Positions 42,470 through 49,801 of a stretch of DNA of 64,000 nucleotides are shown here, piece after piece (the first letter of the stretch is position 1; every line of letters begins with the position of its first letter). The DNA is from Halobacteriovorax sp. JY17. GTDB lineage: Bacteria > Bdellovibrionota > Bacteriovoracia > Bacteriovoracales > Bacteriovoracaceae. The stretch spans positions 186,001-250,000 of the forward strand of contig NZ_NJER01000003.1 of NCBI RefSeq assembly GCF_002753895.1. Reading direction: 5' to 3'. A program made the translations under genes and the position numbers. Under the pieces are notes generated by a model. That model was not told the DNA's origin. It saw only the letters and a list, made by a program, of their open reading frames with translations, and did no database searches.

Positions 42470-42545
42470 GTGGCCGTAGTTCAGTTGGTAGAGCGCCAGA
42501 TTGTGATTCTGGTTGTCGTGGGTTCGAGCCCCATCGGCCACCCCA
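42470..42545 (+). tRNA. tRNA-His (anticodon GTG), CCA encoded
   Basis: A complete cloverleaf is visible: acceptor GTGGCCG pairs with CGGCCAC, the anticodon arm CCAGA-TTGTGAT-TCTGG carries GTG at 42503-42505, and the T arm is GTGGGTTCGAGCCCCAT. The histidine-specific G(-1) is encoded at 42469 and pairs with discriminator C73 (42542). CCA is encoded at 42543-42545. Confidence 0.97.
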
Positions 42546-42631
42546 TTTTGTCTTGTTATTCAAATGCTGATCTCTTCGGAGTGAAACATAGCTAGGCCCG
42601 TTCACAACCCGTTCGGGCCTTTTTGTTTCTA
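42538..42631 (+). repeat. tRNA-His 3' flank element, copy A
   Basis: From the tRNA 3' end onward (CCACCCCATT...) this stretch is homologous to 49699-49801. Shared parts include ACCCCATT, TCTTG, a UUCG-capped hairpin (CTC-TTCG-GAG here), the hairpin loop TTCACAACCCGTT and the ending TTTTTGTTTCTA. The copies differ mainly by paired changes in the stems. It is interpreted as the left boundary of an inserted block. Confidence 0.7.
42594..42625 (+). terminator. tRNA-His intrinsic terminator
   Basis: AGGCCCG and CGGGCCT enclose the loop TTCACAACCCGTT and are followed by a run of five T. It sits 49 bases after the tRNA 3' end. Confidence 0.9.
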
Positions 42632-43371: not shown

Positions 43372-43749
43372 ATGAATATTGAAGTCATTGAACTAATCGC
43401 AAAAGCAAATAAGATTCTCGCAGTTACTGGCCACGGATCAGGAAAGAAATATCCCAAGACCTTAAAGGATATTGTAATTTCTCTAAGGCTTGATCACAAA
43501 ATTCCCGTTAAAGAAATTGTTAAACATATTCCAATCTCTGGCTACGCTGCAAGAGAATGGCCCAGACTTTCTAAAGAGAAGAAAAGTTTTACTAAAATTG
43601 TCGTTCAAGAAAATTCCCCGAAGATCAATCGAAAGAAAGCTCCGAGAAAAGAGAAGTATTTAGATCAAATTGTCTTTAACCAGAATCTTTTGATAACGCT
43701 GATAATTCTTCAGCTATTTGAGTCCTTAATCTTTCACTTATTCTACTAG
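43372..43749 (+). CDS. Small HTH protein, IS66 TnpA-like, possibly truncated
   Basis: The best start is ATG 43372 with GGAGG five bases upstream; an ATG at 43360 forms part of that site. The ~125-residue product has a predicted HTH (KDIVISLRLDHKIPVKEIVKHIPISGYAAREWPR, in parts) and a basic segment, loosely like small IS66 TnpA proteins. The final ~25 residues (from about 43676) are read antisense through the end of the IS66 transposase gene and are hydrophobic and unlike the rest, suggesting that an older frame was cut by the insertion. Function uncertain. Confidence 0.45.
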   Translation: MNIEVIELIAKANKILAVTGHGSGKKYPKTLKDIVISLRLDHKIPVKEIVKHIPISGYAAREWPRLSKEKKSFTKIVVQENSPKINRKKAPRKEKYLDQIVFNQNLLITLIILQLFESLIFHLFY

Positions 43750-45211
43750 CATACTCAAAAGGGCTTTCAAGCTCTTCTCCTTTAGCTGACCTGTGCGCCA
43801 TTGTATTGATAAAGGATCTAGGGCTTAATCCATTTGATTTACACGACTCAATTACTGAATAAAAGAAAGTTCCAACGTCTGCTCCATTTATTGATTTGAA
43901 ACAGTTGAAGTTCTTTCTTCCCATAACTGGACAGCGCTGTTTTCTCTCAGCCATGTTGTTATCAATAGGAACTGTCTCATCATTGAGAAATAGTTGAAGA
44001 CCTTCTCTTCTATTTTGATAGTAATGAATAGCTTTTCCAAGAGAAGATGTATCGAGAAATTTTCCATCCATAGATTTTATCCAAGAATCAATTTCTTTAA
44101 CTATTGAAGTTAAATTATCTAACCTAACTTCTTTTAAAGAATGAAGGTCATCTGCCATGTGCTCAACTTCGTAGAGCTTATCAATAAGGTCAATCACCAC
44201 TTCTGATCTATCATCGTGATTCATTGCTTCGAAAAACTTTCTTCTAACGTGTGCCCAGCAAAATGCATGACTAATATTCTTATAGTCTTCATCTGAGTCT
44301 AAAAAGTTATATCCTGAGTAGCCATCACTTATAATACAGCCTTTCTCGTAACCTTGGATCATTTCTTTCGCGACTGTTCCAGATCTCGTAGGTTCAAATT
44401 GATAATAAGCTCCTCGAGGATTACTCATTGACCAGATATATCCTTTACTTTTATTTGGATTATAAAAATCAATTGGAGACTCATCAATATGAACCCACTT
44501 TTCAGAGAGGACGTCTTGTCTCATTAATTCGTTCAATGGAAATAGAAGATTATATAAATGCTCTGTCTGGCCATAAAGAGTTTTTACATCAACATTTATT
44601 CCAGCTCTTTTCATTTGTTTGCGCTGACGTTCAAGAGGAAGATGATCTTCAAACTTGTCGCAAGCAACTTGAGTAGCAAGTTGAATCGAGTATTCACCGC
44701 CAGGGGTTAATTTTACACCTCCTGGAGCTGTAATAATTTTATTGCAACACTTACAGGAATATTTCTGCCTCTTGTGCCTTTTGATTATATATTGTCTTTC
44801 AATAACTTCGAATTCGTTTGATTCTTCAAAACAATTATTCATTTCATGGAGTTTATCACCACCACAGCTTGGGCATGATGATTTTTCAATCTTGTAGTCT
44901 ATGATTTCTTCATTGAGATCAATTTCTAATTCTTCAATTTGAGTATTCTTAGATTTATTATGAGGAAGATTTCCCTTTCTCCTCTTTCTCTGATTCTTTG
45001 GTTTGTTAGCCTTCCGCTCTTGCTTAGAATCGAAAACACGTTTTCTTAGGTTCTTTAACTCTTCTTCTAACTTTTGTAATATCTCTTCATCTTTCTCTTT
45101 TAATTTCCTAAGTTCAACAACTTCAAGCTCTTTTGAAAGTAGTTTTTCTTGCATTAACATAAGAGCTTCACGCATAAATTCTTTGTCATTTTCTTTAGTA
45201 AAATCAATCAT
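43676..45211 (-). CDS. tnpC: IS66-family transposase TnpC
   Basis: The 511-residue protein has an N-terminal coiled-coil/basic region, a zinc-binding segment with CPSCGG and CKCCNK, and the DDE domain: HIDESP (about 226-231), IISDGYSGY (about 274-282) and the closing IDNNMAERKQRCPVMGRKN (about 417-435), whose Glu completes the triad. Length is standard for IS66 and the frame is intact, so it may still be active. It is convergent with, and overlaps, the small HTH ORF to its left. Confidence 0.92.
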   Translation of the reverse strand: MIDFTKENDKEFMREALMLMQEKLLSKELEVVELRKLKEKDEEILQKLEEELKNLRKRVFDSKQERKANKPKNQRKRRKGNLPHNKSKNTQIEELEIDLNEEIIDYKIEKSSCPSCGGDKLHEMNNCFEESNEFEVIERQYIIKRHKRQKYSCKCCNKIITAPGGVKLTPGGEYSIQLATQVACDKFEDHLPLERQRKQMKRAGINVDVKTLYGQTEHLYNLLFPLNELMRQDVLSEKWVHIDESPIDFYNPNKSKGYIWSMSNPRGAYYQFEPTRSGTVAKEMIQGYEKGCIISDGYSGYNFLDSDEDYKNISHAFCWAHVRRKFFEAMNHDDRSEVVIDLIDKLYEVEHMADDLHSLKEVRLDNLTSIVKEIDSWIKSMDGKFLDTSSLGKAIHYYQNRREGLQLFLNDETVPIDNNMAERKQRCPVMGRKNFNCFKSINGADVGTFFYSVIESCKSNGLSPRSFINTMAHRSAKGEELESPFEYASRISERLRTQIAEELSALSKDSG

Positions 45212-45254
45212 AGAAGAACTATATTACGGACGAGATGAAAGGCCTAATGTTTTC

Positions 45255-45599
45255 TTATCTTTTTAGTAGTATTTTCTTCCCAGACTTTGAGAGAGGGATC
45301 TGTCCGCCATTGAGAATTAGCATTAACTCATTTGAGTTTATCTCAGTAACTTCTTTGATGTGTTCAAAGGACATGAATCTCCCACGGTCAATCTTCTTGT
45401 GAATTAGCACAAGTCCATTGCCATCAAAGAATAAAGCTTTGCAGGCCTTTCTACTTTTTGCGACGAATAGAAAAAGAGCTCCTGACATTAGCTCCAGATC
45501 GATCTTATGAGTGACGATATAAGCCAAAGTGTTGTGGCCTTTTCTCATGTCGACGTAGTCGTTAAAAATATAAATGGGATATTTGGGGTCGAAAATCAT
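45255..45599 (-). CDS. tnpB: IS66 accessory protein TnpB
   Basis: The 114-residue protein contains the family features DYVDMRKGHNTLAY, GALFLFVAKSRKACKALFFDGNGLVL (in parts) and KKIDRGRF, equivalent to DMRKG...LFvF-R-...K-L-D-G-gl--KRLe-GRF in IS66 TnpB (Orf2). It is required for transposition of IS66-type elements, though its biochemical role is unclear. It lies 43 bases upstream of the transposase gene. Confidence 0.88.
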   Translation of the reverse strand: MIFDPKYPIYIFNDYVDMRKGHNTLAYIVTHKIDLELMSGALFLFVAKSRKACKALFFDGNGLVLIHKKIDRGRFMSFEHIKEVTEINSNELMLILNGGQIPLSKSGKKILLKR

Positions 45600-46331: not shown

Positions 46332-47303
46332 TCACATACCAAAGACTTGGATTGCCTTGCTAGACAAGTGAGTTTTTCCTTTCATGTCTATAACAAACCC
46401 CAATAAATCACGCTCGTTGAGATAATCAATCGCTTTTTTCGATGAATAGTTCATCAATATAGTTGCAGTCGTATCTGATTCAATAGCATTATCAGCAACG
46501 ACTGTTGTTGTAATAAGTTCACTTCGGCTACGGCCACTTTTGGGGTCTAAAATGTGATGGTCGCTATGGCCTTCTCTCGACGAGTTGTAATGAATATAAC
46601 TACCAGATGATGCGACACTCCCTTTTTTAAGTTGCAAAAAGCCAACTGACCTTTCAACACTTTTTGAGAATGGATTTTTTATTCCAATTCTCCAAGGTCT
46701 TGGAGCACAAGAGTGGGAATGAACTCTTATATCGCCTGAGCCATTAACATAAAAATTATGGATGCCTTCTGACTTTAGCAATTCAAATACTTTATCTACG
46801 GCATATCCTTTTCCTATACCGCCTAAGCCTATTTTCATTTTTTTACTTGGCAAAAATATAGAATGTTCCATCTCATTTAATTCTATATTTTTATAATTAA
46901 TATATTTATGGCCTTCCGTTCTTTCTTTAAGAGACAAAGTACGATTTTCTTTTTTTGCTTTTCGCCACAAGTGACCAACACTAGCATAAGTTATGTCAAA
47001 AGCCCCTTTAGATTGTTCTGAAATCTCGATAGACCTCAAAACCAGATTCCATATTTCCTCATCTACAGGAACAGGCCTAATTCCTGAATATTTATTTATC
47101 TCGTTAAAGGGGCTCTCTTTAAAATCTGTAAATTTCGATTCAATCCGCTTTACTTCCTTTTCTGCCTCTTTAAAAATGTTTAAAACCTGACTTTTAGAAT
47201 GATAAGATTGAGGGAAGCACAAAAGCTGAAATTCTCCCCCCATCGCCTTAAACCGATGTCCTAATCGAATACTACTATTTTTTTCAACTATTGAAGCTGT
47301 CAT
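46332..47303 (-). CDS. apbE: ApbE-type FAD:protein FMN transferase
   Basis: The 323-residue protein shows the ApbE motifs: FDITYASVGHLWRKA (about 101-115), GLGGIGKGYAVD (about 159-170), GSGDIRVHS (about 188-196), SVASSGSYIHY, DHHILDPKSG (about 249-258) and the metal-site helix ADNAIESDTTAT (about 272-283). ApbE transfers FMN from FAD to Thr/Ser in exported proteins. Unlike most, this one has no visible signal peptide or lipobox at residues 1-25. Its ATG overlaps the thioredoxin-like stop by one base (TAATG). The likely target is the DUF3570 protein of the same operon. Confidence 0.9.
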   Translation of the reverse strand: MTASIVEKNSSIRLGHRFKAMGGEFQLLCFPQSYHSKSQVLNIFKEAEKEVKRIESKFTDFKESPFNEINKYSGIRPVPVDEEIWNLVLRSIEISEQSKGAFDITYASVGHLWRKAKKENRTLSLKERTEGHKYINYKNIELNEMEHSIFLPSKKMKIGLGGIGKGYAVDKVFELLKSEGIHNFYVNGSGDIRVHSHSCAPRPWRIGIKNPFSKSVERSVGFLQLKKGSVASSGSYIHYNSSREGHSDHHILDPKSGRSRSELITTTVVADNAIESDTTATILMNYSSKKAIDYLNERDLLGFVIDMKGKTHLSSKAIQVFGM

Positions 47304-47746
47304 TAAATCTTCTTAGGAGGACGATTTCCTCTGAATAGAACTTCCATTTTATTGTTTATAAGAATAGTTTTAGGAAGGTCTGTAATATTTAGGCTTTTAG
47401 AAGTTACTCTATCCTTATCTTCTAGGATAAGGTAGCTGAAATTATGCTTCTTCAAAAACCTCTTAATTTTCTTTCTTTTTTCCCCTGCATTCACAGCAAC
47501 AAAAAGAACTCCATTTTTCTCATGCTTTTTCTTTAAACTCTCTAGCTCTTCTAATTCTTGAATGCAAGCCGTACACCATGATGCCCAAAAGTTGATTAAT
47601 ATCTTGTTATACTTTTTTGTCTCTTTCTTGATTTCAAAGGACTCTTTTTTCCCATAGATTGGTAAAGTAAAATTTTTCAATTCTTCAGCCTGAACTCCAA
47701 AAGAGATAAATAAAAGCAGTAAAGAAAATAAGGTTGCCTTAAACAT
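47303..47746 (-). CDS. TlpA/ResA-like exported thioredoxin
   Basis: The 147-residue protein has a Sec signal peptide (MFKATLFSLLLLFISFGVQA) followed by a thioredoxin fold. INFWASWCTACIQELEEL contains the C-x2-C active site (WCTAC, about 56-60), and the cis-proline loop is DLPKT. It should act as a periplasmic thiol-disulfide reductase or oxidase. Flanked by ApbE and the DUF3570/DUF4266 genes in one operon, it may keep the cysteine-bearing tail of the DUF4266 lipoprotein or another partner in the right redox state; that is inference. Confidence 0.88.
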   Translation of the reverse strand: MFKATLFSLLLLFISFGVQAEELKNFTLPIYGKKESFEIKKETKKYNKILINFWASWCTACIQELEELESLKKKHEKNGVLFVAVNAGEKRKKIKRFLKKHNFSYLILEDKDRVTSKSLNITDLPKTILINNKMEVLFRGNRPPKKI

Positions 47747-47754
47747 AAATATTC

Positions 47755-48933
47755 CTAAAACTCGAAGCCAAGAGATGACTGAAAATAAGCATATATTAAG
47801 CCATTTGAACGTTTGTAGCCAGTAACACCATTATTCCAAGTAAAGTCATCTAGCTCCATACCAAAAAGTTTTTTTCCTTCAAAGTTACTAGAGAGATACA
47901 TACTCAACTCATACGAATTAAACTTATCTAAGTCTGAGTCGCTCGTCATAAAATCTTGGCTCGTATTAAAGGAGTCTTGATAATATCGAACCTTATCTTG
48001 AGAATGAAGTCTTATTGAAAATTCCAAAAAATCTTCATCATCATTTATCTCTTTTAAAAATGCCAACCGTACCGTATGAGCGTCGAGCCTCCATTGGTCA
48101 AAGTAATATCTATAAAAAAGGTTCATCGCAAAAGTATCACTAAAGCCGTGTACCCATTTTGATGAAGCGGCATATCTTTTCCGTGAGTCTGGTAATTTTT
48201 CAGACTCACGAATATCAGAAACCAAGACACTGCTAGCAGTAGACTCAAGGTTATCCTTAGCCTGAATATAAGTTAAACCAAATTGAATAATGTCCTTTCT
48301 CGTTAGTATTTGAGAAGCTGTTAGGCTTGCCGCCAAAATCTTCCTAGGCTTAAACTCTGAAATAGTAGCACTGCCAGCAGGGGTTAAATCTTCAAACAGC
48401 CTAACTTCATCTGAATAATATTGAAGACCAAGACCAATAGTGAAGTTGTCTTTAGCCAGAGAACGCTCTACTCCCAAACTGGCATTAAGAGAGCGATAAT
48501 CGTACTCTGAAGAAAAGCCTAAGCCTCCATTGAATGCCCAATCACCTATTTCCTTTCTGGCTCCAACAGTTCCAGAAACTCTGGATTGCCCCTTAATCGG
48601 CTCACCTCCACTTGCACCTGTTAAACCGTCTAATTTTGTGTCAGAAGCCGCAGTCCAAAAATCAAATACAAAGTGAGCATTTATTGCAGTATCTTCTGTA
48701 ATTTGATGTTCAATGAAAAGCATTGGCTCAACGACATTTGCTTCTTCTCTTTTTGAATTATCGAAGACCTGTTCTCCATCGTCACTATTTTGGTGATAAA
48801 GATTAAACAAGAGCTTAAATTTTGTCTGCCCTTTTTCCATCATTTCAGCAAAGACACTTTGAATCGAAGTAATAACTAGAAATAAACTTAGGGCGAGCTT
48901 TTTTAATTTAGTTACATCCACATCCACCACCAA
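47755..48933 (-). CDS. DUF3570-family barrel-like exported protein, candidate flavoprotein
   Basis: The ~390-residue product has a signal peptide ending SVFA (about residue 29) and a mature part of alternating amphipathic strands ending FQSSLGFEF, with terminal Phe, as in outer-membrane barrels. I assign it to DUF3570 by its layout and by the company it keeps. Residues 102-108, DGLTGAS, match the ApbE acceptor pattern D-x2-[S/T]-G-A-[T/S], so Ser108 may carry FMN. The start is ambiguous (TTG 48933 or one of several following GTG codons) and overlaps the end of the DUF4266 gene by up to 26 bases. Confidence 0.75.
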   Translation of the reverse strand: MVVDVDVTKLKKLALSLFLVITSIQSVFAEMMEKGQTKFKLLFNLYHQNSDDGEQVFDNSKREEANVVEPMLFIEHQITEDTAINAHFVFDFWTAASDTKLDGLTGASGGEPIKGQSRVSGTVGARKEIGDWAFNGGLGFSSEYDYRSLNASLGVERSLAKDNFTIGLGLQYYSDEVRLFEDLTPAGSATISEFKPRKILAASLTASQILTRKDIIQFGLTYIQAKDNLESTASSVLVSDIRESEKLPDSRKRYAASSKWVHGFSDTFAMNLFYRYYFDQWRLDAHTVRLAFLKEINDDEDFLEFSIRLHSQDKVRYYQDSFNTSQDFMTSDSDLDKFNSYELSMYLSSNFEGKKLFGMELDDFTWNNGVTGYKRSNGLIYAYFQSSLGFEF

Positions 48934-49111
48934 CTGCGGAACTCCCGCCTACGGCTCCTTCCCTAAAAGAACGAACTTCCTCTTGAAAAACACTTTCCTC
49001 TGGATGAGGGTCTAGTTGCATAATCTTTTTTGATAGAAGGCCTCTATCAATTTGCTCTACATTTGCACAAGAAACGAGAGACAAGAGTAAAATGCCTAAT
49101 AATAATTTCAT
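48908..49111 (-). CDS. DUF4266-type small lipoprotein with GGGCGCN tail
   Basis: The 67-residue product has a lipoprotein signal (lipobox LVSC, Cys15), a short segment with KKIMQLDP and SFREGA, and a glycine/cysteine end, GGGCGCN. This combination (catalogue motif ...S-x-EGA...GGGCGCN) is the DUF4266 pattern. Mature size is only ~53 residues. The two tail cysteines could bind metal, be oxidised, or be modified. It is the first gene of the operon with DUF3570, TlpA and ApbE proteins, 5' of a TATAAT promoter. Confidence 0.75.
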   Translation of the reverse strand: MKLLLGILLLSLVSCANVEQIDRGLLSKKIMQLDPHPEESVFQEEVRSFREGAVGGSSAVGGGCGCN

Positions 49112-49246: not shown

Positions 49247-49549
49247 CTACTCAACCTTCTTCAGAACTTGATATATAGTCTTCCCATACCAAAGACCTTT
49301 CTTAGTCTTTGTCGGAACTTTAAGAACATTTAATATTTCAGCAATTTTTCGATAGCTATAACCTTTAGCTCTAAACTCTTTCATTTTTTCAATAACCTCT
49401 CGCTCCCTCTTATGTTGAGACACCTCTCTCTTTTCAACTTTTTGACCATACGCAAGACCACGCCTCCTTTTTTGGTTCTTTCCAGCCCCACGAATAGAGA
49501 TTTCGCATTCCTTCAATCTCTTTAAAATAGTCGTTCGGGAGGACGCCAC
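49247..49549 (-). CDS. Recombinase-like HTH protein, 5' end probably lost
   Basis: From GTG 49549 the frame gives 100 residues; GYSYRKIAEILNVLKVPTKTKKGLW (in parts, about 64-88) resembles the 'recombinase' segment near the C-terminus of large serine recombinases (G-x-S-x-R-x-I-A-x2-L-N...P-T...W). The same frame continues upstream without a stop to 49759, and its nearer part encodes a second HTH (LEGLSCAEISRSVASSRTTIL), so the true protein was longer. No conventional start is present in that extension and no catalytic serine domain is seen. Probably a truncated integrase or its accessory. Confidence 0.5.
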   Translation of the reverse strand: MASSRTTILKRLKECEISIRGAGKNQKRRRGLAYGQKVEKREVSQHKREREVIEKMKEFRAKGYSYRKIAEILNVLKVPTKTKKGLWYGKTIYQVLKKVE

Positions 49550-49698: not shown

Positions 49699-49801
49699 GA
49701 CCCCATTGATTTTCTTGACTACATTCACGAAAGTGATAATCCCTTCGGGGTGATTCATATTAAGCCTCGTTCACAACCCGTTCGAGGCTTTTTTGTTTCT
49801 A
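49699..49801 (+). repeat. tRNA-His 3' flank element, copy B (no tRNA body)
   Basis: This stretch aligns over its length with 42538-42631, starting at ACCCCATT (the tRNA 3' end equivalent) and ending TTTTTGTTTCTA. The small hairpin is CCC-TTCG-GGG here versus CTC-TTCG-GAG in copy A, and the terminator stem is GCCTCG/CGAGGC versus GGCCCG/CGGGCC around an identical 13-base loop. These are base-pair-preserving changes. No tRNA sequence precedes it. It also functions as the 3' boundary of the P450 gene. Confidence 0.65.

Follow-up and report, generated by a model that had tools for sequence, protein, structure and literature searches.

What does an FAD:protein FMN transferase (ApbE) without an export signal do in an operon whose other products are exported? 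We considered this question for a locus in the window (the whole 64,000-nt stretch of DNA analysed here), which belongs to a 3.47-Mb genome of a Halobacteriovorax-like predator. The preliminary description interpreted the locus as a flavinylated redox module with cysteines, situated in the outer envelope and encoded on a transferable island. This is also the best reading of our data, given that a homologous DUF3570 protein is an established ApbE substrate (PMC8238504), that the DUF3570 protein of the window carries a DxxTGAS motif, and that ApbE is adjacent to it. Our preferred explanation, to which we assign a probability of about 0.6, is that the operon is a flavin-carrying redox outlet, i.e., a thiol-to-flavin relay ending at an outer-membrane barrel, acquired on an island at tRNA-His. 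The gene set itself is ordinary; the point worth following is that an ApbE without a signal accompanies an exported barrel.

Gene content of the operon

The operon is located on the minus strand and contains four genes in the order DUF4266, DUF3570, TlpA-like thioredoxin, and ApbE:

48908..49111, minus strand: DUF4266 small lipoprotein of 67 aa, with a lipobox ending at C15 and a C-terminal GG-CGCN (PF14086, 61 bits)
47755..48933, minus strand: DUF3570, a predicted 16-strand outer-membrane β-barrel with a signal peptide (PF12094, 103 bits)
47303..47746, minus strand: TlpA/ResA-like exported thioredoxin with the active site CTAC (CxxC) (PF08534, 64 bits; PF00578, 60 bits)
46332..47303, minus strand: ApbE FAD:protein FMN transferase without an export signal (PF02424, 209 bits)

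Open reading frames and Pfam matches agree with the order and the junctions reported initially: DUF4266 and DUF3570 overlap by 26 bases, DUF3570 and the TlpA-like gene are separated by 8 bases, and the TlpA-like gene and ApbE overlap by 1 base (TAATG). The 26-base overlap assumes a TTG start of DUF3570; GTG starts are possible nearby. Since the 3′ end of the DUF4266 frame (GGGCGCN followed by a stop) overlaps the start of DUF3570, the two genes are likely to be translationally coupled. For the TlpA-like protein, ResA-type NCBIfam matches were also obtained, below cut-off. The single TATAAT promoter that had been proposed for the operon found no support. An extended −10 element, TGATATAAT, is located ~20 bases upstream of the DUF4266 ATG; it stands alone and has no entry in the promoter scan, and the 13 promoter-like sites in the region are no clear excess over the 9.3 (SD, 2.9) found in shuffled sequences.

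The DUF4266 protein ends exactly in CGCN and thus has the C-terminal CXC of the published clusters. The positions invariant in 18 homologues are C15, M31, E39, E51, G55, G56, G62, G63, C64, G65, C66, and N67. Profile matches of DUF4266 to designed armadillo proteins were rejected, since no stretch passed on its own, and a sequence-based PDB search revealed no credible solved relatives of either DUF3570 or DUF4266. None of the four operon proteins was matched by PADLOC; a role in anti-phage defence was therefore rejected.

The operon lies on an island inserted at tRNA-His

The neighborhood of the operon contains the following features:

42470..42545, plus strand: tRNA-His (GTG), the island insertion site (ARAGORN)
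42531..42628, plus strand: left copy of the post-tRNA segment with a terminator (repeat family D1, alignment)
43676..45599, minus strand: IS66-family transposase and TnpB inside the island (PF03050, 231 bits; PF05717, 83 bits)
49247..49549, minus strand: 100-aa recombinase-domain ORF inside the island (PF07508, 27 bits, positions 3–50 of 102 only)
49700..49797, plus strand: right copy of the post-tRNA segment, the right insertion boundary (blastn against locus L166, alignment)

The two copies of the segment (repeat family D1; 63 nt, 78% identical) are 7169 nt apart. G004, which among genomes of the same genus best matches the left flank (80% identical DNA), contains a single copy, which is 92% identical to the right copy in the window, and lacks the ~7.2 kb between the copies. 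This arrangement is as expected for an insertion at the 3′ end of tRNA-His that carried in a post-tRNA segment of its own. Insertion at a tRNA 3′ end, a flanking duplication, and absence from a relative are the hallmarks of a tRNA-targeted island, and the earlier placement of the operon inside an island is thus borne out. A search for an integrase in the island recognized the partial recombinase domain and the IS66 genes alone. The right boundary of the island lies directly at the end of a cytochrome P450 gene (49771-51078), for which the equivalent regions of G004 and of a further genome, G001, showed no match. Different genes directly follow this tRNA-His in the window, G004, and G001 (loci L166 and L167), so this site looks like an insertion hot spot.

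The DUF3570 protein of the window is 85% identical to that of G019, which belongs to another genus, and 40–57% identical to the copies in its own genus. The opposite holds for S-adenosylhomocysteinase, with 95–96% identity within the genus versus 86% to G019. This discordance supports acquisition of the operon by horizontal transfer, as judged from sequence comparison. At the DNA level, the operon and its G019 counterpart are 72% identical across 2.7 kb. Plasmid carriage of the gene set was considered and rejected, the only cases being Hymenobacter and very large Vibrio replicons.

ApbE is adjacent to most DUF3570/DUF4266 pairs

Clusters of DUF4266, DUF3570, thioredoxin, and ApbE have already been described by Méheust et al. 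2021 (PMC8238504), including 316 that lack DsbD, and the idea of a novel gene set was accordingly dropped. To call both DUF families unassigned, as was done at the outset, is likewise incorrect for DUF3570, since the Chlorobium luteolum protein is flavinylated by ApbE at two [S/T]GA[S/T] sites (PMC8238504).

The 59 related genomes, among them that of the window, contain 11 DUF3570 loci, and DUF4266, TlpA, and ApbE adjoin DUF3570 in all 11, which argues that the neighborhood is not due to chance. In the phylum, the distribution of DUF4266 is patchy (34 of 291 genomes). Elsewhere, the set was found in many marine proteobacteria, and Shewanella sp. ANA-3 has all four genes. A scan of named genomes, combined with the related genomes, yielded 102 distinct DUF3570/DUF4266 loci; the named genomes were picked by the pattern [VA]GGGCGCN and are not a random draw. 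ApbE is adjacent at 70 loci and absent from 21, while 11 loci are cut by contig ends. The DUF3570/DUF4266 pair thus does not usually occur without ApbE in other genomes, as 70 of 91 scorable loci, across phyla, have it.

Clusters of DUF3570, DUF4266, and TlpA without ApbE have different recurrent neighbors and apparently represent a second system built on the three shared genes. These neighbors are a lipoprotein-like protein of ~930 aa, a protein with an SH3-like start, and a small predicted barrel (loci L087, L095, L119, L123, L125, L129-L132, and similar).

The flavinylation motif and the predicted fold of DUF3570

The DUF3570 protein of the window contains DGLTGAS and, eleven residues earlier in the same loop, a degenerate DFWTAAS; that only one of the two sites is canonical counts against our preferred explanation. 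The pattern D..[ST]GA[ST] arises in 0.35% of shuffles of this protein. In aligned Bacteriovoracaceae homologues, the DGLTGAS site is TGAS or SGAS in most proteins; in gammaproteobacteria with ApbE, the site aligned to TAAS is usually TGAS. [ST]GA[ST] is present in 61 of 70 DUF3570 proteins with an adjacent ApbE versus 8 of 21 without one (Fisher P = 2e-5, relatedness ignored). ApbE-less proteins usually have TSAS or SSAS at site I, and an exact split of DUF3570 proteins by motif was rejected since five of the ApbE-less ones have SGAS or TGAS.

In three relatives (G002, G004, and G160), TGQS or TGES replaces TGAS while ApbE is kept, which counts against our preferred explanation. The changes in their motif and ApbE may reflect altered specificity or decay. 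At these loci (L021, L020, and L058, respectively), TGQS/TGES (with TAES) is accompanied by a shorter, divergent ApbE without the HHIxDPxxG stretch. A joint clean loss of the ApbE active site and the motif was rejected since the metal-site Asp and Thr stay in all three genomes; the HHIxDPxxG stretch is partly lost also in some ApbEs paired with an intact TGAS.

The AF2 model of the window protein has 16 strands (pLDDT 86, pTM 0.82), as does the AlphaFold model of its homologue from Shewanella sp. ANA-3 (pLDDT 85, pTM 0.79). The even strand number (16) and the C-terminal aromatic residue (F) of the predicted structure are those of an outer-membrane barrel, and the structural matches in the PDB are outer-membrane porins and exporters (4y25: Z 21.8, rmsd 3.3, 256 aligned). 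In both models, the motif is located where strand 3 ends or in the loop that follows. The pLDDT of the motif loop is about 90 in the Shewanella model and <50 in the window model, the latter value counting against our preferred explanation. Since long loops mostly follow odd strands, both termini of the modeled barrel would be periplasmic and the motif loop would face outward. The mature window protein has no cysteine, which leaves thiol chemistry to TlpA and DUF4266.

The operon ApbE lacks an export signal

A hydropathy scan showed that the operon ApbE begins almost at its domain, with no N-terminal hydrophobic segment, signal peptide, or lipobox. The conserved elements MGG, HHILDPKSG, and SDTTAT (the metal-site D...T) are all present, and ApbE homologues were found in the PDB. 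Where the initial view grouped ApbE with exported proteins, it needs amendment, as the operon ApbE appears to be cytosolic.

The same is seen at other loci. Export signals were judged from the hydropathy of the open-frame N-terminus rather than with SignalP. All 70 adjacent ApbEs are signal-less, the maximal 15-residue hydropathy before the domain being 1.11, compared to 2.0–2.5 in four control ApbEs whose N-termini are hydrophobic and to medians of 1.7–2.2 for the three partner genes. In ten of the genomes, most of the remaining ApbEs start with a clear hydrophobic segment, and a few lack it. Lack of a signal in ApbE next to partners that have one implies that flavinylation would precede export. 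The rule is not universal, since the ApbE of a Hymenobacter plasmid cluster (Bacteroidota; L168 3476-4243) has a hydrophobic N-terminus and the C. luteolum ApbE is described as signal-truncated for expression (PMC8238504). The Hymenobacter DUF3570 carries YSSAS, unlike the proteobacterial form.

In the published assay, signal-truncated DUF3570 and signal-truncated ApbE were co-expressed in E. coli (PMC8238504). The reaction is thus independent of export, and DUF3570 that has not been exported can serve as a substrate. No mention of an exported target for an ApbE without a signal was found in the available text of Méheust et al. (PMC8238504) or in the available part of a review of ApbE (PMC12052999).

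A possible electron route and its alternatives

In the preferred explanation, the signal-less ApbE would attach FMN from FAD to the serine of DxxTGAS in newly made DUF3570 while the latter is still in the cytosol. DUF3570, in which a signal peptide is seen, would be exported by Sec and inserted by the barrel-assembly machinery as the predicted 16-strand barrel, with FMN at the strand 3–4 loop and either facing outward or tucked into the lumen. The TlpA-like thioredoxin would be fed by DsbD encoded elsewhere in the genome, where the single DsbD_TM match is located on another contig (C1:1731606-1732244). TlpA may then pass electrons to the C-terminal CGC of DUF4266 or keep it reduced, and the CGC could hand electrons to the DUF3570 flavin; candidate final acceptors include Fe(III), other metals, and oxidants. 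No transmembrane electron donor adjoins the operon, which counts against this explanation. We are more tentative, at somewhat below even odds, about the full proposal that DUF3570 is flavinylated in the cytosol, that FMN is carried through Sec, and that a barrel with an outward flavin results as the flavin counterpart of porin-cytochrome conduits. If this proposal is true, an outer-membrane barrel holds a flavin, a setting best known for haem conduits, and cytosolic loading also solves the flavin supply to the envelope. Loading of a covalent flavin before Sec export by a signal-less ApbE would change the view of how the envelope is supplied with flavin.

Flavinylation could instead take place in the periplasm, either by a lipoprotein ApbE before barrel assembly or by the operon ApbE exported through an unrecognized route. 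The second ApbE of the window genome is such a lipoprotein and could do the job there; ApbEs are mostly periplasmic and membrane-anchored according to the review (PMC12052999), and the Hymenobacter cluster shows that a DUF3570-associated ApbE may have a hydrophobic N-terminus. However, the lipoprotein ApbE is encoded far from the operon, ~9 kb from the NqrC (DGLSGAT) of the NQR genes that it accompanies (L072, L075; G000:C1:1236746-1237600 and C1:1246075-1246356). Moreover, a signal-less ApbE is present in the DUF3570 operon at every non-truncated Bacteriovoracaceae locus and, in the genome of L111 (Thermoanaerobaculia), which may be incomplete, no other ApbE was found. We regard periplasmic flavinylation as improbable. 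Still less probable, in our estimate, is that the operon ApbE modifies another, cytosolic protein and that DUF3570 of this lineage is unflavinylated, TGAS being a conserved loop element only. Such a target would suit an ApbE without a signal, has a precedent in Klebsiella (PMC12052999), and is consistent with the retention of TSAS/SSAS at the same site in ApbE-less DUF3570 proteins; yet the glycine-bearing motif goes with ApbE adjacency, and C. luteolum DUF3570 is a proven substrate (PMC8238504).

An alternative that is compatible with the flavin steps of the preferred explanation and differs from it in purpose is metal handling. The CGCN of DUF4266 would bind copper or iron, TlpA would keep it reduced, and the metal would be reduced by the flavin, at the barrel or within it, to allow its uptake or detoxification. 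The invariant CGCN at the exact C-terminus of DUF4266, 25 published DUF3570 clusters that contain the iron transporter VIT1 (PMC8238504), and an SCO1/SenC-like gene, identified by eye from sequence, near some loci all point in this direction. Such SCO-like neighbors are, however, found at just 5 of 102 loci, and no metal transporter or metalloprotein gene was recognized beside the window operon; we consider this purpose unlikely, albeit with an appreciable chance of being correct.

Comparison with known systems

The window operon is a further member of the class described by Méheust et al. (PMC8238504); the preliminary description was essentially right about it, but the class was known already. 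Shared features are the adjacency of the four families, a DUF3570 protein that is a proven substrate in the published set, a DUF4266 protein ending in CXC, and the DsbD-less form. The window cluster differs from the published ones in having one canonical [S/T]GA[S/T] site and a degenerate TAAS instead of two canonical sites, a thioredoxin of the Redoxin/TlpA type rather than PF13899, a signal-less ApbE, and a location on a tRNA-His island of a Halobacteriovorax-like predator. In contrast to the DsbD-type flavinylation system, it contains no DsbD gene and belongs to the DsbD-less form. With NqrC and ApbE of the Na+-translocating NADH:quinone reductase, it shares the D-x-x-[S/T]-G-A-[S/T] motif, to which ApbE attaches FMN in NqrC and which is a putative FMN site in the window protein; NqrC, however, carries an FMN_bind domain and is a subunit in the inner membrane, whereas DUF3570 is a predicted barrel with a Pfam match to DUF3570 only. 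The ApbE of Klebsiella pneumoniae, which modifies a soluble fumarate reductase, also has no signal peptide, according to the review (PMC12052999). There, both the enzyme and its target are cytosolic, whereas the likely target of the window ApbE is made with a signal peptide and is predicted to fold as an outer-membrane protein.
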